Shown here: positions 3,591-21,571 of the stretch, piece by piece | Numbering within the stretch: the stretch's first letter is position 1 | Layout: each line of letters begins with the position of its first letter | DNA from: a virus | Length of the DNA: 21,571 nt | Virus record (IMG/VR): IMGVR_UViG_3300032053_009316 | Span: 1 to 21,571 of that record | Strand: one strand, 5' to 3' | Notes under the pieces: generated by a model | The model's input: only the letters and a program-made list of their open reading frames with translations | What the model was told of the DNA's origin: nothing | Database searches by the model: none | Translations under genes and position numbers: made by a program

Positions 3591-4139
3591 ATGGTTAGTA
3601 GTAGATTGAAGGATATTATATTTAAGAAACTGTATAGTGATTTATCTCGTGTGGAGATTATTCATTATCAAACTTATATATGGTTTATTGATAGAGAAGA
3701 TAAATGTTGGTATTTCAGGTATGATAAGTCTGACGGCACCCTTTTATGGAAGTACAGTTTTTTCTCTAATTTCTTTGCCCTCTTTACAATGTGTGATTCC
3801 GAATTTACTCCCATTCTTTCTTCTTGGGTGGAAGATGTCCTAAATTGTAAGGTAAACACAACTGATATAGGAACTTATTCTAATTCATATATGGTGGAAG
3901 CGGTCCTAAATTTTAATTTAAATTGTAAAATAAACACAACTGTAAGTGCCGATGTCAGTGTTATAACTTTGATGGAAGATGTTCTCAATTACAGGGTAAA
4001 CACAACTACAATTAAATACGGAAGATTCCCTATGTCGGTGAAAGAGGTCTTAAATTGTAAGGTAACCACAACGATAAACAAAAACCCCATTGAAGTTCGT
4101 GTGGTTGAAGAGGTTACAGGATTAAATCATAACGTGTAA
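3591..4139 (+). CDS. Repeat-containing protein of unknown function
   Basis: This 182-residue protein has an N-terminal domain (about 1-75) rich in aromatic residues (TYIWFIDREDKCWYFRY, SFFSNFFALF) and a C-terminal series of four imperfect units: VEDVLNCKVNTT (80-91), VEAVLNFNLNCKINTT (102-117), MEDVLNYRVNTT (128-139) and VKEVLNCKVTTT (150-161), with a period of about 22-26 residues and a possible decayed fifth unit at the end. The repeats look like recent tandem duplications of the end of the ancestral domain. It has no signal peptide. The ATG at 3591 was preferred over a GTG two codons upstream because that GTG overlaps the end of the -7 promoter box. I do not recognise the family; position and host-type promoter suggest an early phage gene. 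Confidence 0.65.
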   Translation: MVSSRLKDIIFKKLYSDLSRVEIIHYQTYIWFIDREDKCWYFRYDKSDGTLLWKYSFFSNFFALFTMCDSEFTPILSSWVEDVLNCKVNTTDIGTYSNSYMVEAVLNFNLNCKINTTVSADVSVITLMEDVLNYRVNTTTIKYGRFPMSVKEVLNCKVTTTINKNPIEVRVVEEVTGLNHNV

Positions 4140-4168
4140 AGAGAATTGAGTTTTGGTTACACTAAACA

Positions 4169-4190
4169 GTTTACTGTAAACCATAATAAA
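4169..4190 (+). promoter_or_regulatory. Operator-like GTTTACTGTAAACCATAATAAA, copy 2
   Basis: The first 13 bases form a palindrome with GTTTA/TAAAC arms. The motif ends exactly where the -33 TTTG of the next promoter begins (4191), a position suited to an activator or repressor. Confidence 0.45.
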
Positions 4191-4222
4191 TTTGTTTATC
4201 TAATGATTTAATCTTATCTTTG
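4191..4222 (+). promoter_or_regulatory. Consensus host-type promoter TTTG-N20-TATCTTTG
   Basis: TTTG at 4191-4194 and TATCTTTG at 4215-4222 are an exact match to the Bacteroidota primary sigma consensus. The ATG at 4228 starts five bases later. Confidence 0.7.
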
Positions 4223-4227
4223 TGATT

Positions 4228-4515
4228 ATGAAATATATACTACCTATTAATTATGAGGAACTACATTGGACTGAGAGACGTGCAGTTTTAAAACAATACA
4301 TTAAAGAACAGAATAATCTTTGTATGTATTGTGGAACATTATTGACTGGACCTCCCGCGAATCATATTACTGATAATAACATAAATTGGAGAAACTTTCC
4401 TACAGGTTTCTTGGATAACCCCATTCACTTACAACATCTACATACTACAGGTATGACTGAAGGTGCCGTTCACGCTTATTGTAATGCCGTGATGTGGCAA
4501 TATGACAATCGTTAA
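4228..4515 (+). CDS. Small HNH-type endonuclease, endonuclease VII-like
   Basis: A 95-residue protein with a zinc knuckle near the N-terminus (LCMYCGTLL) and the C-terminal signature NPIHLQHLHTTGMTEGAVHAYCN, which corresponds to the phage HNH/recombination-endonuclease pattern P-V-H-L-H-H-x-H-x-TG-x-x-x-GAVH-x-x-CN. The HLQHLH segment would supply the metal-binding and catalytic histidines and the final CN the last zinc ligand. The length fits this minimal family. It probably cuts or nicks DNA during phage replication, recombination or packaging, or acts as a homing nuclease. The ATG was chosen over a GTG six bases upstream because that GTG overlaps the promoter. Single gene with its own promoter, between two copies of the GTAAACCATAA motif. 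Confidence 0.7.
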   Translation: MKYILPINYEELHWTERRAVLKQYIKEQNNLCMYCGTLLTGPPANHITDNNINWRNFPTGFLDNPIHLQHLHTTGMTEGAVHAYCNAVMWQYDNR

Positions 4516-4594: not shown

Positions 4595-5434
4595 ATGGTA
4601 TCAAATAAAATAATTAACTTTACCCCTACAGGTACACAAACGACCAGTGATAATTCTTTTGCCCCGTTATTACCATCTGAAATAATTGAGGAGGTTCATG
4701 AGGCTTATGAATATGGTATTACGATGGTGCATATTCATGCCAGAGACCCTGAGACATTAAAGAATAGTAGTAACAAAAATCATTATAGACCCATTATAGA
4801 AGGTATTAGACAACATTGTCCTAATTTAACTATATGTGTTTCATTAACAGGTAGATTCGAACCAAATATTGATAGAAGGACGGAAGTCTTAGAATTACTT
4901 CCCGATATGGGGTCATTAACCATGTCCTCATTAAATTTCCCGACTGGTGAATCAATTAATTCTCCTGATACTATTTTGAAATTAATTGAGAAAATGAAAG
5001 TATACGGTGTCACCCCTGAAATCGAATGTTTTGATTCTGGAATGTTAAACTACACTAACTATTTGATTAAAAAAGGTGTCTTAACGGGACCTCACTACAT
5101 TAATGTTATTTTGGGTAATATGTATAACGCACAATCAGACGTTGCATCACTGAATTCAATTATTCAGAATAAACCTAATAATAGTTTATTATGTTTGGGT
5201 GGTATCGGTAAAGAACAATTACCATGTAATCTGTTAGGTTTATTATATGCTGACGGAATTAGAATTGGGTTGGAGGATAATTTATATTACACAGATAAAG
5301 TCAAAACAACTAATATTAAATTATTACAAAGAATTCGTAAGATAATGGACGAAATGGGATTGGGTGTTTTATCACCATTAGATTTTAAAAACTTGGGTTA
5401 TGGAAATAGAAAAATTAACAATACTTGGATTTAA
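4595..5434 (+). CDS. Beta-keto acid cleavage enzyme (BKACE, DUF849 family)
   Basis: This 279-residue protein has the BKACE TIM-barrel layout. Enzymes of the family are zinc-dependent and swap an acyl group between a beta-keto acid and acetyl-CoA, giving acetoacetate and a new acyl-CoA. The N-terminal LLPSEIIEEVHEAYEYG is followed by the metal-binding VHIHARD (His46, His48), PEIECFDSGML near 141-151, and the late GIRIGLEDNL, whose Glu227 is the probable third zinc ligand. Length and motif order fit the family. The last 14 residues (YGNRKINNTWI) overlap the next gene by 35 bases and differ from the usual end. The family is catabolic (as in lysine fermentation) and strange next to sugar genes; here it may provide an unusual acyl-CoA for the acyltransferase that follows. 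Substrate cannot be read from sequence. Confidence 0.8.
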   Translation: MVSNKIINFTPTGTQTTSDNSFAPLLPSEIIEEVHEAYEYGITMVHIHARDPETLKNSSNKNHYRPIIEGIRQHCPNLTICVSLTGRFEPNIDRRTEVLELLPDMGSLTMSSLNFPTGESINSPDTILKLIEKMKVYGVTPEIECFDSGMLNYTNYLIKKGVLTGPHYINVILGNMYNAQSDVASLNSIIQNKPNNSLLCLGGIGKEQLPCNLLGLLYADGIRIGLEDNLYYTDKVKTTNIKLLQRIRKIMDEMGLGVLSPLDFKNLGYGNRKINNTWI

Positions 5435-6044
5435 TGAACCATCAATTACTATGTTATTAGATATTTTGAATTCAAAAGGTCTTTATCCATCCATTGAAAT
5501 CATCAATAACTTGGGATTATTACCAACAAAAAAATACGAACACCCCAAGTTTAATATCGAAATTATTAATGATATGGACATCAATAACAAAATGGTTACC
5601 TTGGGTGTTGTTAAACCTAAAATAAGAAAAATAGTTAGTAATGTATTCGAGATAAATAAGGACACTCTTTTGGTTAACCTAATATCGGATAACTCTGACA
5701 TCTCTCAGACAGTTAAATTAGGTAGAGGGATAGTTGTTAATACTTTGGTAAGTATTGCTGGTCACACAACGATTGGTGATTTTGTATTTATTAATAGAAA
5801 TGTTAGTATTGGCCATCATACTGTAATTGGTGAATACACAACAATAAATCCTGGTGTTAATATTGCTGGTAATGTGATAATTGGTGAAGGTTGTCAAATA
5901 GGGATTGGTGCGAATATAATTGACGGTGTTAAGATAGGAAATAATACCATTATTGGCGCAGGTTCTTTGGTGACCAAAGATATCCCTGATAATGTTGTTG
6001 CATATGGAAATCCTTGTAAAATAATTAGAAAAAATGAAACATAA
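5400..6044 (+). CDS. Left-handed beta-helix acyltransferase, NeuD/PglD-like
   Basis: The 214-residue protein resembles the sugar O- or N-acetyltransferases of the NeuD/PglD type. The N-terminal half (about 1-95) is a small alpha/beta domain that normally binds the nucleotide sugar; it lacks a clear Gly-rich loop. The second half (about 105-205) is a run of hexapeptide repeats (for example IGDFVF, IGEYTT, IGEGCQ, IGNNTI), with AGHTTIGDFVFI holding the candidate catalytic His, and ends in the family's IPDNVVAYGNPCKII. The predicted reaction is transfer of an acyl group from CoA to an amino sugar. It overlaps the BKACE gene by 35 bases and the aminotransferase gene by 11, which implies coupled translation. 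The missing nucleotide-binding loop makes the acceptor uncertain. Confidence 0.8.
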   Translation: MEIEKLTILGFNEPSITMLLDILNSKGLYPSIEIINNLGLLPTKKYEHPKFNIEIINDMDINNKMVTLGVVKPKIRKIVSNVFEINKDTLLVNLISDNSDISQTVKLGRGIVVNTLVSIAGHTTIGDFVFINRNVSIGHHTVIGEYTTINPGVNIAGNVIIGEGCQIGIGANIIDGVKIGNNTIIGAGSLVTKDIPDNVVAYGNPCKIIRKNET

Positions 6045-6630
6045 CCCATATAAAATAGTTGAGATGTTTGAGGAAGAAATTTCCGACTATACTGGCTCAC
6101 CTTTCGCAATTGCCTTAGACAACTGTTCTGACGCTTTATTTTTATGTTGCCTATACTTAAAAGTAAGTGAGGTAACAATACCTAAAAAAACTTATCTATC
6201 GGTTCCACAATCAATAATTAATTCTGGAGGTAATGTTAAATTTGAGGATATTGATTGGTCAGGAATTTACCAACTAAAACCTTACCCAATCTATGATTCG
6301 GCAAGAAGATTTACATCAGAAATGTATATACCAAACACATTTATGTGTTTATCATTTCACCCTAAAAAGATTTTAAAAATGAGAAAAGGTGGTATGATTT
6401 TAACCGATAATGAAGAGGCGTATAAATGGTTTAAAAAAATGAGACATGAAGGTAGGGATGAAATTCCATATACTCAAGATAATATCAGTATGGTTGGATG
6501 GAATATGTATATGACCCCCCCTGAAGCCGCGGACGGACTATGGTTAATGTCATCGATGGATAAACATAACCCAGACGGTGCGGAGAATTATCCTGATTTA
6601 ACAAATAACGATTTATTCAAAACACTATGA
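6034..6630 (+). CDS. Compact DegT/DnrJ/EryC1-type sugar aminotransferase
   Basis: This PLP-dependent enzyme would put an amino group on a keto-sugar nucleotide. Seen in order are the cofactor-binding ALDNCSDALFLCCLYL (27-42; usually GT-x-AL), IPKKTYLSVPQSIINSGG (family P-x-x-T-F/Y), the Asp of IYDSARRF (Asp88), and SFHPKKILKMRKGGMILTDN, in which Lys112 is the expected Schiff-base lysine. At 198 residues it is about half the usual length: most of the C-terminal small domain is missing, ending after GWNMYMTPPEAADGLW. The reading frame is intact up to a stop that overlaps the next start by four bases, so this is a short form rather than a recent truncation. Activity may require a partner subunit or be altered. 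Confidence 0.75.
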   Translation: MKHNPYKIVEMFEEEISDYTGSPFAIALDNCSDALFLCCLYLKVSEVTIPKKTYLSVPQSIINSGGNVKFEDIDWSGIYQLKPYPIYDSARRFTSEMYIPNTFMCLSFHPKKILKMRKGGMILTDNEEAYKWFKKMRHEGRDEIPYTQDNISMVGWNMYMTPPEAADGLWLMSSMDKHNPDGAENYPDLTNNDLFKTL

Positions 6631-7277
6631 TATCTAAAATAAATAAAGTTCCTGTAGTTTTACATACTATGGATTCTTATTCACCATATTGGGATAATTG
6701 GTTTTTCTTATTTACTAAACATTGTAAAAATCATGGACCTATTTTCTTTTTAAGTGAAGAAAAAGAACCTTCGTTTGTTAGTAAAGTAACACATATAAAA
6801 ACAGGTAATGGTGAATGGGGAGCAAGATTATTAAAAGGTTTTGAAAGTATCGATTCTCAATTAATAATCTATATGCAAGAAGATTTTTGGCCAAAAAAAG
6901 ATTTAACATTAACTGACGACCTTTTAAAGATTTTCCACGAAAAAAAGATGCAATGTCTTAAAATAAATAATGTAGTACAACCAATACAAGTAGATGTCAT
7001 TGATGGCGAATTATGTAAAGTAAGACAAAACTCACCTTATTCTTTAACTCACCAATTTGGTATTTGGAATAAAGAATTTTTTAAAAAACATATTTACCCT
7101 AATGAAAACCCTTGGGTTAATGAAATATCGGGTAGTAATAGAATAAATAAAGAACCACACAATATTTACCAAATAAACCATGAATGGTATGCTAAAGTAT
7201 GTTCAAGTGGGACTTTAAACGTTTATGGTAAAAGAATGTTGGAATCATATAATTTAAAATTTGAAGGTAAAGTATAA
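6627..7277 (+). CDS. Glycosyltransferase-like protein
   Basis: A 216-residue cytoplasmic protein with a GT-A-like outline: PVVLHTMDSYSPYWDNWFFLF at 9-29 as the first strand and turn, WGARLLKGFESI (about 69-80), and LIIYMQEDFWPKKDLT, where the acidic EDF takes the place of the metal-binding DxD. The later part (HQFGIWNKEFF, NPWVNEI) resembles acceptor-side segments of capsule and lipopolysaccharide transferases. It starts in a four-base ATGA overlap with the aminotransferase. Together with the next gene it would transfer the sugar made by the upstream enzymes. The family match is by pattern only and donor and acceptor are unknown. Confidence 0.6.
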   Translation: MISKINKVPVVLHTMDSYSPYWDNWFFLFTKHCKNHGPIFFLSEEKEPSFVSKVTHIKTGNGEWGARLLKGFESIDSQLIIYMQEDFWPKKDLTLTDDLLKIFHEKKMQCLKINNVVQPIQVDVIDGELCKVRQNSPYSLTHQFGIWNKEFFKKHIYPNENPWVNEISGSNRINKEPHNIYQINHEWYAKVCSSGTLNVYGKRMLESYNLKFEGKV

Positions 7278-7278
7278 A

Positions 7279-7848
7279 ATGTTACACATTATAACCCCAC
7301 TTTATCGGTTTAATTTATTAGAACAAGTTTATAATTCAATACTCATGAATGACGATATAATTTGGCATATCTCAAAATCAAATAAACGAGAAGAATTAGA
7401 TTATGATTTTTTAAAGAAAGATAAAAGAATTAGATTATATAATGTTGATTGTGAAGATACTGATACAACTTCTAAAAGAAACGCCGTTTTTGATAATATT
7501 AAAGATGGGTATTTTTGTTTATTAGACGATGATACTATTTTTCATGAAAATATGTATATAAAATATTTGGAATGTGTTGAAAATAATTTTAAAGGTATGT
7601 TAGTTGGTGAACAGATTGGTAAATATGGTAAGTTAAGACTTATTGCTAGCAAACCTGTATTTGGTAGAATTGATACAGGTAATGTATTATCTCATTATTC
7701 TTGTTTAATTGATTGTAAATGGCCGAGCGAACACATACCCAAAGTTAATCAAAAAGATTTTCTTTTTTGGAATTCGGTATATGAATTCTACGGAAAAAAA
7801 TGTGGTATTTGGAATCAGACAATAAGTATATATAACAAATTAACTTAA
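7279..7848 (+). CDS. GT-A glycosyltransferase (family 2-like)
   Basis: The 189-residue protein begins MLHIITPLYRFNLLEQVYNS, the typical first strand and helix of a GT2 nucleotide-sugar domain, and has the DxD motif in DGYFCLLDDDTIFHENMY, with KRNAVFDNI as the preceding helix. The C-terminal part includes ASKPVFGRIDTGNVLSHYS, which fits an acceptor-side loop, and a final FLFWNSVYEFYGKK helix. An in-frame TTG lies six codons upstream, but the ATG one base after the previous stop is the natural start. It is short for the family and has no membrane helix, so it is a soluble enzyme. It ends the five-gene cassette. Confidence 0.7.
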   Translation: MLHIITPLYRFNLLEQVYNSILMNDDIIWHISKSNKREELDYDFLKKDKRIRLYNVDCEDTDTTSKRNAVFDNIKDGYFCLLDDDTIFHENMYIKYLECVENNFKGMLVGEQIGKYGKLRLIASKPVFGRIDTGNVLSHYSCLIDCKWPSEHIPKVNQKDFLFWNSVYEFYGKKCGIWNQTISIYNKLT

Positions 7849-8402: not shown

Positions 8403-8977
8403 AAGAAGAATTAAATATGATGAAATACCTTCTTTCTTATGAAAGAGGTGTCGTTATATCAGAACAAAGAAATAATCTCTCAGAAGAGACGGGAATGGGT
8501 TCCATGATGAAAGAAAAAATCCAATCTATGGTTGAAAAAGAGGTTGTTAACGATCCTTCATTGGGTGAGGTATCAAGTAATGTACCGAGTGTTGATGATA
8601 TCATATCTAATGATGAAGTCTGTGACATAGTAACAGGTAATGAAGAACACGATAACATCATTTCAAAAGTTAAGTCTGAGTTAATTAGAATGAAAAAAGA
8701 AAAAGGGGCGAACTCATTATGGGAAGTTCTTAAGAATGTTAAGAAAGGCATTAAAATGGCAATTGTTAAAAATAACTCAGGAGATACGTCCGAACCTGAA
8801 GAAGTTAACGAACAAATTGTTGCGGGTGGAATTATGATTGGAACCGCAATGGTGGGTTGGTCATTATTAATTGCGATCGGAGCAATTTTACTTGTAATTA
8901 TTATTGCAAGTGCATTAATAAAAGATAGTGGTCAAAGTCACGGATGTAGAAAAAACCTTAAGTGGGGTGAAGTGTAA
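8384..8977 (+). CDS. Tagged membrane protein, class B tag
   Basis: A 197-residue protein. The class B tag (EELNMMKYLLSYERGVVISE, ending in ISE at 25-27 followed by Q) is almost identical to that of the gene at 10039. Then come an acidic, helical middle part (about 30-145) and one long hydrophobic stretch at about 148-182 (IVAGGIMIGTAMVGWSLL, then AIGAILLVIIIASALI), long enough for one or two membrane passes, and a short basic tail. A membrane-inserting protein with a putative packaging tag fits a channel or anchor delivered with the DNA, as internal ejection proteins do in other phages. The ATG start lies inside the preceding gene, with a TAATG junction to the next gene. Confidence 0.65.
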   Translation: MERQLLKEELNMMKYLLSYERGVVISEQRNNLSEETGMGSMMKEKIQSMVEKEVVNDPSLGEVSSNVPSVDDIISNDEVCDIVTGNEEHDNIISKVKSELIRMKKEKGANSLWEVLKNVKKGIKMAIVKNNSGDTSEPEEVNEQIVAGGIMIGTAMVGWSLLIAIGAILLVIIIASALIKDSGQSHGCRKNLKWGEV

Positions 8978-10014
8978 TGAAAATCATATTAAGTGAGTCT
9001 CAAATATTGAATCTATTAAATGAAGATATGGGTGTTAGCAGATCAACATTACCATATGTAAATTTAATTTATAGAATTATAGAACCAATGGTGGAATCTA
9101 TGGTTCATAGTGGGAAGTCTTCACGACAAAAAATAAAAATAAGTTTAGATAAAATTAAGAGTATTATAAAAAATGAAGAAGATTCATTTTTAGAATTTCC
9201 GATGGAGGAGATTGAAATTGATATTTTATTTTCTTACGAAAAAGGTGATATAGAAAATCATTTTGGTAGTGGTGGTTCGGCATATCCATTAAATGAAAAA
9301 ACGGGAGATTATTCGTATATGAGAAAACCATCCCCTGAGATCCCCAAAAAAATTAAAAATGAAATTGATATGACATTAAATGCCAAAATAGACATTGATA
9401 TTTATATTGATTCAAAATTTAAGATGAGTCAGATGTATGAATTACTTATGGATGTTAGAGATACCATTATGCATGAAACATTACATTTATATGAATTTTA
9501 TAAAAGATGGTTAAGTACTGGTTCAGGAACATTTAATATAACCAAAACTTTTGCCGGTAGAGAAAATCCAAATACACCAAGAGAAATTTACGATTATTAT
9601 TCTGACTTTTTAGATTACGTTTATTATTCTGAACCATATGAAATAAATGCAATGACCCAAGAAGCATACTCAAAAGTTTTACGAATGAGTTTTGATACAT
9701 TTAAAACAACTAAGTATTGGATTATGTCAAACAAAATGGAAAATTTTAATGCCGATCAATATTATCGTGAATTAGAAAACAAAATTAAAGAACGTAGTGG
9801 TAAAGAAACATTAAATTATCATTTAAATAATTTACACAAATTCTATATAAAACAATATGTTAAAATCGCAAAAGATTTTAATCAACCTGTATCTAATAAG
9901 ATATTGAAGACCAAAAATATTTACGAATTAATAAAAAGTTTTGAACTTAGAATTACTCAATCAGGAAAAAATCTTAAACGTAAGTTTATGAAATTATATA
10001 GTCTTGAAAAATAA
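8977..10014 (+). CDS. Tagged zinc-metalloprotease-like protein
   Basis: A 345-residue protein. Residues 1-16 (KIILSESQILNLLNE) form the class C tag with LNE at 14-16. The core holds an HExxH motif in DTIMHETLHLYEFYKRW (His166, Glu167, His170) and a likely third zinc ligand in SEPYEINAMTQEAY (Glu222), the E-x-x-A pattern of gluzincins. Before it lies a strand-rich region with KIDIDIYIDSKF, and after it a long helical domain. It is not related to the small protein at 1755 beyond the zinc motif. If the tag targets it to the head, it would be a protease carried in the virion that could cleave head, ejection or host proteins. No substrate can be inferred. It starts in a TAATG overlap with the previous gene. 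Confidence 0.7.
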   Translation: MKIILSESQILNLLNEDMGVSRSTLPYVNLIYRIIEPMVESMVHSGKSSRQKIKISLDKIKSIIKNEEDSFLEFPMEEIEIDILFSYEKGDIENHFGSGGSAYPLNEKTGDYSYMRKPSPEIPKKIKNEIDMTLNAKIDIDIYIDSKFKMSQMYELLMDVRDTIMHETLHLYEFYKRWLSTGSGTFNITKTFAGRENPNTPREIYDYYSDFLDYVYYSEPYEINAMTQEAYSKVLRMSFDTFKTTKYWIMSNKMENFNADQYYRELENKIKERSGKETLNYHLNNLHKFYIKQYVKIAKDFNQPVSNKILKTKNIYELIKSFELRITQSGKNLKRKFMKLYSLEK

Positions 10015-10532: not shown

Positions 10533-10560
10533 GTTGTTGGTATTAAGAAATACCAACAAC
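10533..10560. terminator. Bidirectional terminator with 12-base stem
   Basis: GTTGTTGGTATT (10533-10544) and AATACCAACAAC (10549-10560) pair perfectly around AAGA, between two converging genes. The T-tract is better on the minus strand (CTTTTAAAA) than on the plus strand. Confidence 0.7.
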
Positions 10561-10968
10561 CTCAAGATCAAAAATTAATTTTTTACCAGCCAATGGGTGA
10601 TTAGCATCAATTACTACAACCTCATCTTTAACTTCCATAACTTTCACAAAACTAGGACCCATAGGTCCCATTGTTTGTAATACTTGACCAACCTCAACTC
10701 CTTCAGGAACTTTATCTTTGGTGATTTCAATGATCATATCATCAACGTGATCACCATAAGCATCAACAGATTCAATTTCAATTGTTTTTTTATCACCCTC
10801 TAACATATCAACAAGACCTGATTCAAACCCTTTAATAAGTTGTCCTTGACCTAAAGTTGTCGTTAATGGTTCTCTACCTTCAACTAAAGACGTGTCAAAA
10901 ATTGTCCCATCTTCTAATTTTCCAGTGTAATGTACCGTTACGGTACTGTCATTTAAAACTTTTTTCAT
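10543..10968 (-). CDS. SlyD-like FKBP-type peptidyl-prolyl isomerase
   Basis: This 141-residue protein has the FKBP fold interrupted by an insert-in-flap chaperone domain, as in SlyD: VTVHYTGKLEDGTIFDTS (9-26), GQGQLIKGFESGLVDMLEGD (40-59), the flap insert at about 65-120, and the closing DANHPLAGKKLIFDLEVVGI. It catalyses prolyl cis-trans isomerisation and aids folding in the cytoplasm. It lacks the metal-binding His-rich tail of E. coli SlyD. It looks close to the Bacteroidota chromosomal enzymes, so it may be a recent acquisition from a host. It is untagged and faces the tagged genes on the opposite strand; a role in folding virion or effector proteins is an inference. Confidence 0.9.
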   Translation of the reverse strand: MKKVLNDSTVTVHYTGKLEDGTIFDTSLVEGREPLTTTLGQGQLIKGFESGLVDMLEGDKKTIEIESVDAYGDHVDDMIIEITKDKVPEGVEVGQVLQTMGPMGPSFVKVMEVKDEVVVIDANHPLAGKKLIFDLEVVGIS

Positions 10969-12610: not shown

Positions 12611-13114
12611 ATGAATATTATTATCACCGAAAGTCAATATCGTATACTACTTGAAAATCAAGAGGAGGTTGATCGCATATTAGATAAAATTAGTGATGGT
12701 GGTTATGAGTCTTTAAGTATTGACGAAAAAAGATACTTGGATGTATTTTCAAAACATAAAGGAAGACCTGATGAATTTATTGATCCTTCTGAAAGTTATG
12801 ACGATAGAGAAGGTGAAAAATTTACCTCATCATTTAATCACATACCAAAGATAGAGTTTGTTTTTGATTATGAAGAACAAACTGAAAATGAAACCGCATT
12901 ATATGGGACAATATTGTTTAAAGATAAAGAATACATTGGTGGTTTATTCTTAAACAAAATGGGACACTTAATAAACTTTGATTTCTATGATATTAATGAA
13001 GAACCTGAAAGTATACACGATGATGTAGGTAGATTTCAAAATGAAATAGAAGGAATTGAATATGAAGTTAAAATGTTTTTTGAGGATGATGTTATTCCAT
13101 CATTAATAAACTAA
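12611..13114 (+). CDS. Tagged acidic protein with DUF6576-like segment
   Basis: A 167-residue protein with a class C tag (NIIITESQYRILLE, LLE at 13-15). Right after it comes VDRILDKISDGGYESLSIDE, which resembles the helical motif found at the C-terminus of Bacteroidota rhomboid-family proteins (DUF6576: LDKIS-x-x-GY-x-SL-x-x-EK). The rest (about 70-167) is acidic and strand-rich (KIEFVFDYEEQ, ALYGTILFKDKEYIGGLFL), with no motif that I can name. It is the last gene of the three-gene tagged operon. Function unknown; the DUF6576 resemblance is by eye. Confidence 0.6.
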   Translation: MNIIITESQYRILLENQEEVDRILDKISDGGYESLSIDEKRYLDVFSKHKGRPDEFIDPSESYDDREGEKFTSSFNHIPKIEFVFDYEEQTENETALYGTILFKDKEYIGGLFLNKMGHLINFDFYDINEEPESIHDDVGRFQNEIEGIEYEVKMFFEDDVIPSLIN

Positions 13115-16120: not shown

Positions 16121-16711
16121 ATGAAAACATTTGAAAAATTAATAATCCCCGAAGACTCTGCTTGGGGTAGAAAAACATTATCAGCAAGAATATGGAGATT
16201 CTTACATTGGAGAATTAGATCGTTCCTAACAGGTTGTAAAAATGTCATAAGATGGTCACCAACTATTTTTAAAGATAGAGATTGGGATGACTGGTATATC
16301 TATAAAATCCTACAAAAGAAAATTGAGTACCAAAGAAAAGAAATAATCTATGCCAATAGACATACTATGGTTGATCGTGATAATCGTGATATGACAATTG
16401 CTCTTAATTTAATTGAAAGAGTTAAGGAAGACTATTATGGTACCGAATACCTTGACTACTCTGAATCAAAATTTAGATTTGAACCTATTGAGGGGGATAG
16501 AGAACTTTTCTCAATGGAGAAAGATGTTATTTCGGAAAAATATGATGACTATTTAAAAAAATATCCGTCAAGTGTTCGCAAAGTATCTAAACAAAAACCT
16601 GATTTAAATAAAGAAGATTTGTGTTTTTGGGTGGCGAAACATAATGAAGAAAAAGCTCATGATCTTTTACATAGAGTGTTAAAAGAAAGAATGAGAAGAT
16701 GGTGGGATTAA
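16121..16711 (+). CDS. Conserved phage-type protein of unknown function
   Basis: A 196-residue untagged protein. It has an arginine- and tryptophan-rich N-terminus (WGRKTLSARIWRFLHWRIRS), then FKDRDWDDWYIYKILQKKIE, a pattern (D-x-DWD-x-x-Y-I-Y-x-x-L-x-x-K) that I associate with small conserved proteins of marine phages, followed by a helix with RHTMVDRDNRDMTIALNLIERV. The C-terminus includes FWVAKHNEEKAHDLLHRVL, with regularly spaced His that could bind a metal. No enzymatic function can be assigned. The start is fixed by the -7 box four bases upstream. Confidence 0.65.
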   Translation: MKTFEKLIIPEDSAWGRKTLSARIWRFLHWRIRSFLTGCKNVIRWSPTIFKDRDWDDWYIYKILQKKIEYQRKEIIYANRHTMVDRDNRDMTIALNLIERVKEDYYGTEYLDYSESKFRFEPIEGDRELFSMEKDVISEKYDDYLKKYPSSVRKVSKQKPDLNKEDLCFWVAKHNEEKAHDLLHRVLKERMRRWWD

Positions 16712-16986
16712 TCTTTAACGTCCACTGATGGTAATATCATCAGTGGTTGTTTTCTACCAATAACTTTCCACCCCAATCTTACGATAGTCTCAAGACCGTC
16801 AGGATAAAACACCATCCCGTCTTCAATATTGGTTATATGTATTTTTACATGAACCATATATTTCTTTTGACTTTTAATATAATCTAAATGACCTACTTTA
16901 ACATAACTACCATCGCCAAACATAAGATCAAGTTGACCGCATAATGATGAGTTAATAATGTCTTCGAGTAATTCATTCCTTTTCAT
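16708..16986 (-). CDS. Hypothetical 92-residue protein
   Basis: A small cytoplasmic protein with a helical start (MKRNELLEDIINSSL) and a strand-rich body (YMVHVKIHITNIEDGMVFYP, IVRLGWKVIGRKQPLMIL). No known motif. Its end overlaps the converging gene by four bases and contains a terminator-like hairpin. Only a degenerate TTATTTTTAT box lies in front of the ATG. Compact and gene-like, but without other support. Confidence 0.5.
   Translation of the reverse strand: MKRNELLEDIINSSLCGQLDLMFGDGSYVKVGHLDYIKSQKKYMVHVKIHITNIEDGMVFYPDGLETIVRLGWKVIGRKQPLMILPSVDVKD
16722..16754 (+). terminator. Terminator of the gene ending at 16711
   Basis: CCACTGATG (16722-16730) / CATCAGTGG (16738-16746), a perfect nine-base stem with a seven-base loop, is followed by TTGTTTTCT. 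It lies inside the end of the converging minus gene. Confidence 0.65.
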
Positions 16987-17074: not shown

Positions 17075-17081
17075 TATTTAT
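17075..17081 (+). promoter_or_regulatory. Phage-type core box TATTTAT before the adhesin
   Basis: TATTTAT followed by AAAT and the ATG at 17086; a five-base hairpin (GTTGT/ACAAC, 17043-17056) lies upstream. Confidence 0.4.
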
Positions 17082-17085
17082 AAAT

Positions 17086-19320
17086 ATGAAATTAATTACT
17101 TACTTATTATTGTTTATAACCTTTCAAGGGTTTGCACAATATTGCCCATATCTTGGGCCAGATCAACTATTACCTTGTGGTGTTGGTTCCACTACTCTAA
17201 CCGCCGATTTAACTCAATGTGGTGTCGGAGGATCTAATCCTAATCAAACCACAAACTATGTGGCAACAAATATTCCATTTGTTAACCAAACAAATACAGG
17301 AACAAATTTAACAATGGCAGATGATTCACAACAAGGACCATTTAATATTGGATTTAATTTCTGTTTCTTTGGGACAACCTACACACAATTTTACGTTGGA
17401 TCTAATGGGTGGGTTTCATTTAGTGGTGGTCAACCAACTACATTTACGTCACAAACAATACCAACGGGAAATGTTTTAGTTCCTAAGAATTGTATTATGG
17501 GTCCGTGGCAAGATTGGCATCCAGGTCTTGGGGGTCAAATTAAGTATCAAGTACAGGGGACCGCTCCTTGTAGAAAATTAGTCGTTAGTTGGATTGGAGT
17601 TCCAATGTTTTCTTGTACTTCTAATCAAGGAACGTTCCATATTGTAATTTATGAGTCAAGTAATCTAATTGAAAATCATATACAAAGTAAACCATCTTGT
17701 TTACAATGGCAAGGAGGAACTTCAGTGCAAGGTATACATAATTTAGGTGGTACGATAGGTATTACCTCACCAGGAAGAAACTCAACTGTATGGACCGCAA
17801 ATAATGACGCATACAGATGGACACCAAGTGGGCCTGTAGTAACACCTACACTTACTTGGTACCAAGTTGGTAACCCAATTCCAATTGGTACTGGACCAAC
17901 AATTAATGTAACCCCTCCATCAGGAGGTGCAAACTATACTTGTCAGTTTGTATACCCAATATGTAATGCAGGATGGTCAAGTTGTAACTCAGGAATAGGT
18001 AATTTAGGTCCTGACACCGTATTTGTTTTACCTGGACCACCAAACTTACCTTTACCAATAATAAATGTTGTAAATCCAACGTGTGATAACTTGTGTGATG
18101 GAATTATTGGTATTATACCACAAGGTGGAACAGGAGTTCAGACTATTTCATGGAATGGGTCTCAACCACCCACATTTAACCAAATTGGGTTATGTGAGGG
18201 AGTTTACTCTTTTATAATAACAGATGGTGCGGGTTGTACAGTTACCTCATCAGCAACTTTAACAGATCCACAACCCATTGTCATAGATCCAATAATTGGG
18301 GTAAACATTTTATGTTTTAACTCAACAACTAATCCATTTACGGTATCAAGTCCAACACCTAACCTAAATTATGTTTGGATCACAACAAATGGTACTATAA
18401 CTTCAGGTCAAGGAACTAATCAAATGAATTTGGATGTCACTGGTGTTGTTGGGGGGAATTATAATGGTATGGTATCGGTATATGGTCAAAATATAAATGG
18501 ATGTGTAAGTCAAACAGAAACATTTAATGTTAACATATTAAACATACTACCTGTTATAGATCCAACGGGTCCTTATTGTGAGTACGATGGATGTACAACA
18601 ATAAACCCAACACCTGCAGGTGGAACTTTATTTGGAAATAACATTTTGGGTAACCAATATTGTCCTGATAATGGTTTTGTGGGTATTGACAACGTTAGTT
18701 ATGTATATAATCAATCAGGGTGTGTGTTTAGTACAAATATAGATGTACAAGTTTACCAAAGACCAATGGTTAGTCCTGTTGTTAATGGTACTATTGATTT
18801 AAATAATGAGTATCATGAATTATGTGAGGGAGATAGTATAATTGATCTATATGAAGGAATTTCCCCTAATGGTGGTTATAATGAATGGTATGTTTTTGGA
18901 GATACCTTACAAGGACCAACAATTAACATAACTTGGGATACTGAAGGTGTGTTTAACTTTGAGGTTGTTAGATGGGAGAATGGGTGTTCCTCATTACCAC
19001 AGGATTTTAATGTTACAATAGAACTTTGTCCTGATATGATTTATTATATACCTAATTCCTTTACTCCTGACGGAGATGAACATAATAATACGTTCAAATG
19101 GATTTTTACAAGCGGTTTTGATCCCATGAACTTCAATATTGTGATATTTAACAGATGGGGAGAACTTATATTTGAAAGTAATAACCACATGAGTTATTGG
19201 GATGGTACTTATGGTAATAAAATATGTCCATTAGGTGTCTATACGTATAAATTACAATTTGGTGATCCTAAAACAGATGGAAAATATGTACTAACAGGTA
19301 ATGTTAACCTAATTAGATGA
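17086..19320 (+). CDS. T9SS type B-sorted surface adhesin with SprB-like repeat
   Basis: A 744-residue secreted protein. Signal peptide 1-18 (KLITYLLLFITFQGFAQ, then Y-C). Residues about 60-245 form a beta-rich N-terminal domain (FNFCFFGTTYTQFYVGSNGW, KLVVSWIGVPMF) common in large Bacteroidota adhesins. A SprB-like repeat at about 328-395 begins VNPTCDNLCDGIIGIIPQGG and has TISWNG and GLCEGVYSFIITDGAGC. More Ig-like segments follow. Residues about 655-744 are a type B T9SS sorting domain (gliding-motility C-terminal type): IPNSFTPDGDEHNNTFKW, IFNRWGELIFES, WDGTYGN and GVYTYKLQF. Such proteins cross the outer membrane by T9SS and stay on or leave the surface. No PorP/SprF partner gene is adjacent, so export would rely on the host. 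The gene overlaps the next by four bases. Confidence 0.85.
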   Translation: MKLITYLLLFITFQGFAQYCPYLGPDQLLPCGVGSTTLTADLTQCGVGGSNPNQTTNYVATNIPFVNQTNTGTNLTMADDSQQGPFNIGFNFCFFGTTYTQFYVGSNGWVSFSGGQPTTFTSQTIPTGNVLVPKNCIMGPWQDWHPGLGGQIKYQVQGTAPCRKLVVSWIGVPMFSCTSNQGTFHIVIYESSNLIENHIQSKPSCLQWQGGTSVQGIHNLGGTIGITSPGRNSTVWTANNDAYRWTPSGPVVTPTLTWYQVGNPIPIGTGPTINVTPPSGGANYTCQFVYPICNAGWSSCNSGIGNLGPDTVFVLPGPPNLPLPIINVVNPTCDNLCDGIIGIIPQGGTGVQTISWNGSQPPTFNQIGLCEGVYSFIITDGAGCTVTSSATLTDPQPIVIDPIIGVNILCFNSTTNPFTVSSPTPNLNYVWITTNGTITSGQGTNQMNLDVTGVVGGNYNGMVSVYGQNINGCVSQTETFNVNILNILPVIDPTGPYCEYDGCTTINPTPAGGTLFGNNILGNQYCPDNGFVGIDNVSYVYNQSGCVFSTNIDVQVYQRPMVSPVVNGTIDLNNEYHELCEGDSIIDLYEGISPNGGYNEWYVFGDTLQGPTINITWDTEGVFNFEVVRWENGCSSLPQDFNVTIELCPDMIYYIPNSFTPDGDEHNNTFKWIFTSGFDPMNFNIVIFNRWGELIFESNNHMSYWDGTYGNKICPLGVYTYKLQFGDPKTDGKYVLTGNVNLIR

Positions 19321-19514
19321 TAAAATTTGTAAAATATCTTTTAACATGGGTATCAAGTAATTTAAGTGTACCTTTTTGGGTTGTAGGTCATGTTCATTTA
19401 ACTATGAACATATATAAAGACCTACATGAGATCATTGCATCACTATTAATGAACATAATTGTTGCAATTGGATTTTGGATTAGTTGGTTAGAGACAAAAA
19501 ATAATACAAAATAA
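19317..19514 (+). CDS. Small membrane protein after the adhesin
   Basis: A 65-residue protein starting in an ATGA overlap with the adhesin stop. Residues about 15-32 (NLSVPFWVVGHVHLTM) and 40-58 (IIASLLMNIIVAIGFWISWL) are hydrophobic and could be two membrane segments, with a charged KNNTK end. It could help the adhesin, or be a holin-like protein given the cell-wall enzyme encoded next door, but neither is shown. It lies directly before a terminator. Confidence 0.55.
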   Translation: MIKFVKYLLTWVSSNLSVPFWVVGHVHLTMNIYKDLHEIIASLLMNIIVAIGFWISWLETKNNTK

Positions 19515-20201: not shown

Positions 20202-21571
20202 ATGAAATATCGTTTAAGAATAAAAATCACATTATCCATCGCTGCTATTTTAATGATTGCTTATATGTGTGTTAAAATTGCGGTTCTTATTGGATTAAGA
20301 GAATCTACGGAAACCACACGATGGATAGAATTTTTCGGAGTTATTTCTCTCATTCCCATATCAATTTTATTAATTAAAGATTTTATCAATTCCACTAAAG
20401 ATACTGTATCTAAAGAATCGGTGGGTAAATTGGTAGAATTAGAACATTTCTTAAATTCTTCTTCCATCATATCTAAAGCTGATGCAAAAGGAAAGATTAC
20501 ATACGTTAATCAAAAATTTACCGAAATTTCAGGTTATTCATTAGAAGATGTTCTTGGTAAAGACCACAATATTGTAAATTCTGGAACACACCCAAAAGAG
20601 TTTTGGTCTAATATGTACAAAACTGTTGTTGTGAATAAGGGTCTTTGGAATGAGGTTTGTGTCAATAGGGCAAAAGATGGAAGTCTTTATTATGTGGATA
20701 CTTTTATTAAATGTAGTTTTGATGAAAACGGTAAATTGTTAGAGTTTATGTCAATTCGTCAAGACTTAACTTCTTTAAAAAAGACTGAACAAGAAATATC
20801 AAATAGAATGAATGCGATTAACAGATCAAATGCCGTTATTGAATTTGATTTAGATGGCAACATAAAATTTGCGAATGATTTATTCTTAAGTACTTTAGGT
20901 TATGATTCACACGATGAACTCGTTGGAAAACACCATAGTATATTTGTTGAAGATGAGGTAAAAGACTCTGAAGAATATTCAAACTTTTGGAAGACTTTAA
21001 AAGAAGATCATTTCTTTATGGGTGAGATTATTAGAAAGAAAAAAGACGGATCTTTAATATATCTCCAATCAACATACAATCCTATCATAGGTACAGACGG
21101 TAAACCCTATAGAGTAATGAAAATCGCCACTGACATCACCCAAAGTATTAATCAACAAATGGAGATTGAAAAGAAAAATACCTATTTAGAACATGCCGCA
21201 AAGATATTAAGACACGATATGCATTCAGGTATAAACACTTATATGCCAAGAGGATTAAGTTCTTTAGAAAGAAGATTAAGTCCTGAAGATATTAAATCAT
21301 TAAAAATTGAATCTCCTCTTAAAATGATTAAAGAAGGACTTAAACATTCTCAAAAAGTTTATAAAGGTGTTTATGAGTTTACTAATTTAGTTAAAAAAGA
21401 TGTTGTTTTAAATAAGACAGAATGTAATTTAAAAACAATACTTGACGATTATTTGTCGGCAACCGCATATAGTAGTCAAGTTATTATTGAAGAATTACCA
21501 ACAATAGAAGTAAACGAAGCATTATTTTGTACTGCGGTTGATAACTTGATTAGAAACGGTTTAAAGTATAA
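20202..21571 (+). CDS. Membrane sensor histidine kinase with two PAS domains (3' truncated by window)
   Basis: 456 codons are visible and the frame is open at the right edge. Two membrane segments lie at about 8-34 (IKITLSIAAILMIAYMCVKI) and 45-63 (FFGVISLIPISILLI), followed by PAS domain 1 (about 88-200; ADAKGKITYVNQKFTEISGY, GKDHNIVNSGTHP) and PAS domain 2 (about 210-325; FDLDGNIKFANDLFLSTLGY, GKHHSIFVEDE). The dimerisation helix is KILRHDMHSGINTYMPRG, with His338 as the probable phospho-acceptor, and the N-box DNLIRNGLKY at 447-456 starts the ATPase domain, which continues outside. It would autophosphorylate and pass phosphate to a response regulator or act by kinase/phosphatase control; none is encoded in the window. 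The early His-box (HDMH) is atypical for the H-E-x-R/N type. Confidence 0.85.
   Translation, partial: MKYRLRIKITLSIAAILMIAYMCVKIAVLIGLRESTETTRWIEFFGVISLIPISILLIKDFINSTKDTVSKESVGKLVELEHFLNSSSIISKADAKGKITYVNQKFTEISGYSLEDVLGKDHNIVNSGTHPKEFWSNMYKTVVVNKGLWNEVCVNRAKDGSLYYVDTFIKCSFDENGKLLEFMSIRQDLTSLKKTEQEISNRMNAINRSNAVIEFDLDGNIKFANDLFLSTLGYDSHDELVGKHHSIFVEDEVKDSEEYSNFWKTLKEDHFFMGEIIRKKKDGSLIYLQSTYNPIIGTDGKPYRVMKIATDITQSINQQMEIEKKNTYLEHAAKILRHDMHSGINTYMPRGLSSLERRLSPEDIKSLKIESPLKMIKEGLKHSQKVYKGVYEFTNLVKKDVVLNKTECNLKTILDDYLSATAYSSQVIIEELPTIEVNEALFCTAVDNLIRNGLKY

Follow-up and report, generated by a model that had tools for sequence, protein, structure and literature searches.

The window analysed here, a 21,571-nt stretch of an IMG/VR virus contig, encodes a T9SS type B cargo protein whose relatives are spread across large T4-like phages, and which is probably exported through the T9SS of the host to the surface or surroundings of the infected cell. 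We infer the export route and the localisation of the protein, and any benefit to the phage is conjecture. The family combines a Bacteroidota-style signal peptide, a conserved Cys-rich N-terminal domain, a variable stalk and a type B sorting domain, and the related phage records searched were found to have neither PorP/SprF nor SprA of their own.

Domain layout and export signals

The cargo gene is a single uninterrupted ORF with the following parts:

17086–19320, + strand: T9SS type B cargo gene, phage-encoded, 744 aa (ORF list; TIGR04131 and CHU_C matches over cut-offs; at least 168 viral relatives)
17086–17136, + strand: Sec signal peptide, residues 1–17, conserved in the family and predicted by sequence pattern
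17137–17139, + strand: Gln18, at +1 after the predicted signal peptidase I site (Q-rule), invariant in alignment A1
17137–18045, + strand: N-terminal domain (N-domain), residues 18–320, all-beta, with many invariant Cys and weakly nidogen-like (alignments; AF2)
18046–19020, + strand: variable Ig/PKD-type stalk, residues 321–645 (Pfam search; alignment; pairs with a divergent middle)
19048–19317, + strand: T9SS type B sorting domain (CTD), residues 655–744, with FTPDGDEHNN, FNRWGE, WDGTY and GVYTYKL (TIGR04131 and PF13585)

The signal peptide, MKLITYLLLFITFQGFA followed by Q, is common to the family. All 55 distinct family signal peptides have Gln at +1, a residue that makes up 4.9% of the mature proteins, and all 55 have Ser, Gly, Ala or Thr at −1. 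Gln at +1 after the signal peptidase I site is the Q-rule of Bacteroidetes (PMC5837995; PMC10653852), and the predicted family signal peptides follow it. The signal peptide noted in the first-pass annotation is a property of the whole family. The N-domain alignment contains many invariant Cys, for which an oxidising compartment fits better than cytoplasmic assembly.

At the other end, the protein matches CHU_C (PF13585) at residues 655–728 with E 3e-14 and 53.3 bits, and TIGR04131 with 46.9 bits. CTDs were assigned by the curated cut-offs of 27 bits for PF13585 and 35 bits for TIGR04131; both are exceeded, in agreement with the earlier claim of a complete type B sorting C-terminus. The positions of the CTD motifs FTPDG, RWG, W.G and Y are the same in the phage and bacterial rows of the alignment. 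According to PMC12618676, secretion of type B substrates requires five conserved CTD motifs, A–E.

Within the stalk, Pfam places PKD_6 at residues 400–480 (18283–18525). An SprB-like repeat had also been proposed, and this did not hold up: no SprB-repeat family matched the cargo protein in Pfam at E≤0.01, and the resemblance of residues about 324–398 is by eye only. A PHROGs search gave no family for the protein, and the label "adhesin" first attached to it is a functional guess.

Selection and predicted structure

The N-domain is the most conserved part of the family in the alignments. By Nei-Gojobori estimates, in which dS is near saturation in many pairs, dN/dS is about 0.05–0.24 for the signal peptide plus N-domain in non-overlapping pairs, and 0.03–0.15 for the CTD in most of the closer pairs, with higher CTD values in divergent ones. 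L044/L065 is among the few divergent pairs in which the CTD is less constrained or replaced. For the most part, these values point to purifying selection on the N-domain and usually on the CTD. The middle region has higher dN/dS than the ends and is where modules are exchanged; stalk modules are swapped between phages, judging by pairs such as L035/L066, in which conserved ends enclose a diverged middle.

The full chain was predicted to consist of successive beta domains (mean pLDDT 80.5, pTM 0.38), and the N-domain alone, modelled by AF2 with 100 phage and bacterial rows, reached pLDDT 89 and pTM 0.85. Among PDB structures the predicted N-domain had no match better than E 0.29, and a PDB sequence search with the whole protein and the N-domain profile returned nothing. 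Pfam NIDO matched weakly in 8 of 100 family members. BFVD matched further phage proteins, whose annotation reads "Gliding motility-associated, C-terminal domain". Whole-chain Foldseek matches (GhpA grappling hook, titin, cadherins) were set aside as generic Ig-repeat similarities with low TM-scores, which are uninformative.

Distribution among large phages

Pfam, PHROGs and profile searches of the 21,571-nt window found no capsid or terminase gene, and the phage identity therefore had to come from relatives. Phage-family matches within the window include an endonuclease VII-type gene (phrog_1035), phrog_14729 and phrog_3000/endolysin phrog_33083. The genes that bear on the identity of the contig are:

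227–1042, − strand: endonuclease VII-type phage gene (phrog_1035, E 8e-21)
10543–10968, − strand: FKBP-type PPIase, tying the window to other phage contigs (14 loci, about 58–69% identity)
12611–13114, + strand: DUF6576 gene, a conserved neighbour (Pfam; related loci)
16121–16711, + strand: conserved phage gene, cluster 25 (50–73% identical in L013, L029, L042, L056 and L057)
16708–16986, − strand: conserved phage gene, cluster 36, directly upstream of the cargo gene in L013, L056 and L057 too
20202–21571, + strand: PAS histidine kinase, running off the contig (relatives in phage loci L042 and L057)

A scan of IMG/VR with the cargo protein found 142 relatives, and a scan with the alignment at least 168, counted as contigs and not as independent phages; clustering at 85% identity sorts 72 full-length cargo proteins into 46 groups. 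LR745206, a 634-kb uncultured phage from another collection, encodes a protein that is 51.7% identical over 98% of the length. Gp23-type capsid genes scoring above 85 bits are present on 12 family-carrying records, including ones of 229, 292, 436 and 634 kb, and a capsid gene of this type and score is also found in LR756502, which bears other T9SS cargo. Sheath, tube and baseplate hub genes lie beside the cargo gene in related contigs. Gp23-type capsid and contractile tail genes on the same contigs thus place the cargo gene in large T4-like phages.

The order FKBP, DUF6576, cluster 35, cluster 25, cluster 36, cargo is common to the window and to the loci L056 and L057. The 150-kb contig of L056 carries a Gp23 capsid gene (209 bits), and in L057 a PAS histidine kinase gene lies 3´ of the cargo gene as it does in the window. 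The FKBP-type gene is upstream of, and on the opposite strand to, the cargo gene in all 14 loci. In the capsid gene of the 436-kb record L239 (267424–268926) the Gp23 frame is interrupted by one TAG and one TAA codon, which could be due to an intron, a frameshift or recoding.

Genomic context and putative expression signals

In 30 loci the cargo gene sits in a tail cassette, in the order sheath (phrog_23), tube (phrog_4542), cargo and baseplate hub (phrog_150), all on the same strand. Nearly all of these loci have a terminator-like hairpin (for example GCTCCAAAGAAATTTGGGGC, then a T-rich stretch) between the tube and cargo genes; it is conserved in L015, L025, L062, L074, L079 and others. The context is window-like in 19 loci, where the cargo gene is not among tail genes, and in ten loci an endolysin-type gene lies at most 3.5 kb 3´ of the cargo gene. 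Around the cargo gene of the window we noted the following:

16722–16746, + strand: terminator-like hairpin ahead of the cargo gene (the region has 5 of these where 2.4 are expected)
17075–17081, + strand: TATTTAT box, 11 nt upstream of the cargo start (positional enrichment; also at 8 other window genes)
19317–19514, + strand: ORF for a 65-aa membrane protein, overlapping the cargo stop codon (ATGA), with weak relatives in L014 and L029
19516–19535, both strands: terminator-like hairpin that closes the unit 17086–19514 (hairpin scan)

The TATTTAT sequence, which had been taken for a phage-type promoter box, ends 4 nt before the cargo start codon. It begins 11–39 nt upstream of 9 of the 30 window genes in the sense orientation, the cargo gene included, and of none in the antisense orientation, against a null mean of 1.6. 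In all, the window has 22 copies where chance predicts 21.3, and simple over-representation was rejected; the enrichment lies only in the position ahead of genes. The count in the window of TATAAATA, the T4 late promoter, is at chance.

Evolutionary origin

When 84,980 prokaryote genomes were scanned, the N-domain turned up in MAGs of Bacteroidota, in some cases on contigs of 400–880 kb, and most of the nearest bacterial N-domain proteins end in a type B CTD. The MAG proteins L099–L109 share the N-domain at about 54–67% identity, and the complete proteins likewise have a CTD. They differ in that they lie on bacterial contigs and are mostly longer (824–1430 aa), and SprA and PorP/SprF were found in the four of their genomes that were examined. 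In a tree of 107 N-domains, built by a quick method with a viral set gathered by similarity to the window protein, such that deeper viral branches could be missing, all 45 phage sequences fall on one side of a branch with an SH-aLRT of 99. This phage clade includes the window protein and that of LR745206, with the Bacteroidota MAG proteins beside it. The simplest reading is apparently a single old capture from Bacteroidota, with the gene resident in phages for a long time since. Where the phage context is known, the tree implies four or more changes in the position of the gene, which indicates that the cargo gene moves within or between phage genomes.

Secretion machinery

PorP/SprF (PF11751) was absent from 23 related phage records and from the Pfam matches of the window, and was found in the positive control, four of four homologue-bearing Bacteroidota MAGs with 5–20 copies each. 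Likewise, SprA (TIGR04189) had no match in 18 phage records and was found in each of the four MAGs. Although many of the phage records searched are fragments, those of 226–642 kb were negative too. These results agree with the first-pass annotation, in which no PorP/SprF partner adjoins the cargo gene. The phage encodes a predicted Sec and T9SS type B cargo and none of the machinery searched for; that of the host would have to be borrowed.

The missing neighbour is not specific to phages, given that PorP was detected near the bacterial homologues at one locus only (L159), and that three orphan type B substrates of F. johnsoniae without a neighbouring shuttle use one unlinked shuttle (PMC12618676). 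The latter case also makes the missing neighbour compatible with secretion of the cargo. Proteins with a type B CTD are anchored at the surface by binding to PorP-like proteins (PMC9143113), and type B substrates depend on specific shuttles, one of which can serve several CTDs (PMC12618676).

The first-pass annotation had pointed to viral genomes as a place to look for TIGR04131-type domains, and type B CTDs are indeed found there: the total over the 23 phage records is 30 type B and 16 type A matches, most of them over cut-offs, and scanning IMG/VR with the CTD gave 364 relatives. LR745206 has four type B and three type A matches and LR756502 three and one, in records of 634–642 kb. In L311, L313, L323, L327 and L328 (around 3710–4291) we observed proteins of ~190 aa that consist of a signal peptide and a type B CTD with almost no passenger.

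Proposed mechanism and alternatives

We propose that the host Sec translocon would export the cargo after infection, that signal peptidase I would cleave before Gln18, and that host glutaminyl cyclase would convert this residue to pyroglutamate. The mature protein would fold with disulfides in the periplasm, pass through the outer membrane via its CTD and the host SprA translocon, and be held on the surface of the infected cell by a PorP/SprF-like host shuttle, the variable Ig/PKD stalk presenting the conserved Cys-rich N-domain outward. Its most likely use would be to change what binds the infected cell, be it by receptor masking against competing phages, by a block on re-adsorption of progeny to debris, or by altered cell adhesion. 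Receptor masking or superinfection exclusion is our first guess at the benefit, since the conserved N-domain would face outward and placement in the tail module suggests late expression. Against export by the host T9SS we counted the need of type B CTDs for a matching shuttle, an N-domain without a solved relative, and the loosened or replaced CTD of pairs such as L044/L065.

A broader form of this model is possible, and we advance it tentatively. Since the single old capture, a lineage of large T4-like Bacteroidota phages might have kept a surface-display programme, in which each genome encodes several cargo proteins of types B and A that leave late through the host machine, recoat the infected cell and control adsorption to it, with the N-domain, of a fold unmatched in solved structures, as the active head.

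That 30 loci have the cargo gene in a tail cassette would also fit a virion protein. The cargo could be a tail whisker or decoration whose Ig/PKD and N-domain regions bind hosts or surfaces, with the export signals as structural leftovers. Besides the same-strand site between the tube (phrog_4542) and baseplate hub (phrog_150) genes, this would suit the Ig-like domains, which are common on phage particles. Gut phages bear modular Ig/PKD/BACON adhesins near structural genes (PMC13370021). However, the signal peptide with Gln at +1 is kept in 55 of 55 cases, the CTD is mostly under purifying selection and many Cys are conserved; in addition, the hairpin separates cargo from tube gene in nearly all tail-cassette loci, and in the 19 window-context loci the cargo gene lies outside the tail genes. 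We therefore consider a virion role unlikely.

It is quite improbable that the protein is instead a decoy, the type B CTD of which occupies a host PorP/SprF shuttle or the translocon and thereby keeps host adhesins or receptors from being displayed. The specific shuttle dependence of type B substrates, with one shuttle for several CTDs (PMC12618676), and the minimal proteins of L311, L313 and L323 would be consistent with it, but the passenger N-domain is the most conserved part of the family, so the passenger itself seems to matter. A chimeric contig or host DNA mis-called viral, which relatives in Bacteroidota MAGs and a window devoid of capsid and terminase genes might suggest, can be set aside as very unlikely, because the window is colinear with L056 and L057, the L056 contig bears a capsid gene, and the tree separates the phage sequences, as one clade, from those of the MAGs. 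With many further contigs carrying T4-type capsid and tail genes, the objections of a chimera and of a bacterial chromosome fail, and the gene can be taken as genuinely phage-borne, as first claimed.

Relation to known systems

The idea that a phage borrows the host T9SS, which had been raised for this gene and is supported for it from sequence, is not wholly unprecedented (PMC7468147; PMC6949934). In Cryophage, three genes encode type A T9SS cargo (PMC7468147); these are likewise phage genes with T9SS sorting domains for which host machinery is presumably borrowed. The Cryophage type A CTDs are found on an endoglucanase, a GH39 protein and a PA14 protein and vary between strains, whereas here a single type B family, united by its N-domain, is conserved in many T4-like phages. 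Near the head module of gut crAss/BACON phages there are also ORFs with T9SS sorting domains (PMC6949934); these differ in having BACON domains and in being reported as annotation only, with no family analysis. Gln at +1 has similarly been described for Porphyromonas phage proteins, whose signal peptides suit the signal peptidase I of Bacteroidota, in a study that does not mention T9SS (PMC10367356).

Among bacterial proteins, the type B cargo of F. johnsoniae (SprB, and the orphans Fjoh_1123, Fjoh_1720 and Fjoh_4934 with their shared shuttle Fjoh_1677; PMC12618676) resembles the phage cargo in its signal peptide and TIGR04131-type CTD, and the three orphans resemble it further in having no adjacent shuttle gene. 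In contrast to these, the present family is phage-encoded and far shorter than SprB, and its secretion is a prediction. Our search of the T9SS and phage literature, with subscription papers and preprints mostly outside its coverage, found no report of a conserved phage type B family. To the extent that we searched, what is new is the type B family and how widely it occurs in large T4-like phages, along with its single clade there, the retention of its export signals and its place in the tail cassette.

Phages are known to change host surfaces through lipoproteins, O-antigen enzymes and prophage genes. To our knowledge, there is very little documentation of a lineage of large phages making systematic use of a dedicated outer-membrane secretion machine of the host. 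Our data suggest that phages carrying the cargo gene remodel the surface of infected cells. If so, infected Bacteroidota, which are common in fresh and marine water, would show a viral surface, and the T9SS would be a host factor of infection. A 99-residue signal that can be expressed makes the idea testable in a laboratory flavobacterium. The pairing of a Gln+1 signal peptide with a type B CTD could also serve as a marker that finds such genes and predicts the hosts of uncultured phages.

Other genes of the window

In related phages (L057, 10392–13067; L042; L032) the PAS histidine kinase adjoins a 145-aa response-regulator-like protein, and the two are possibly a phage-encoded two-component system. 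Between 8082 and 15431 of the window, unrelated proteins have common short N-terminal tags (R-L-T-E-S-x-L... and ...MKYLFGYxRGxVISEQ), many of which end in (L/I)xE. The first pattern occurs in 25 ORFs of 16 clusters in the window and related loci, and never in the protein bodies that served as the control. These tags are reminiscent of the capsid-targeting peptides of T4, which the prohead protease cuts.

A sugar/surface module at 4595–7848 encodes a beta-keto acid cleavage enzyme, a NeuD-like acetyltransferase and a short DegT-type aminotransferase (198 aa), together with two further genes, one weakly glycosyltransferase-like. Finally, the window has metallopeptidase-like phage proteins with HExxH motifs at 1713–2183 and 8977–10014 (HEYTHH; HETLH), the former with a weak match to DUF6782.
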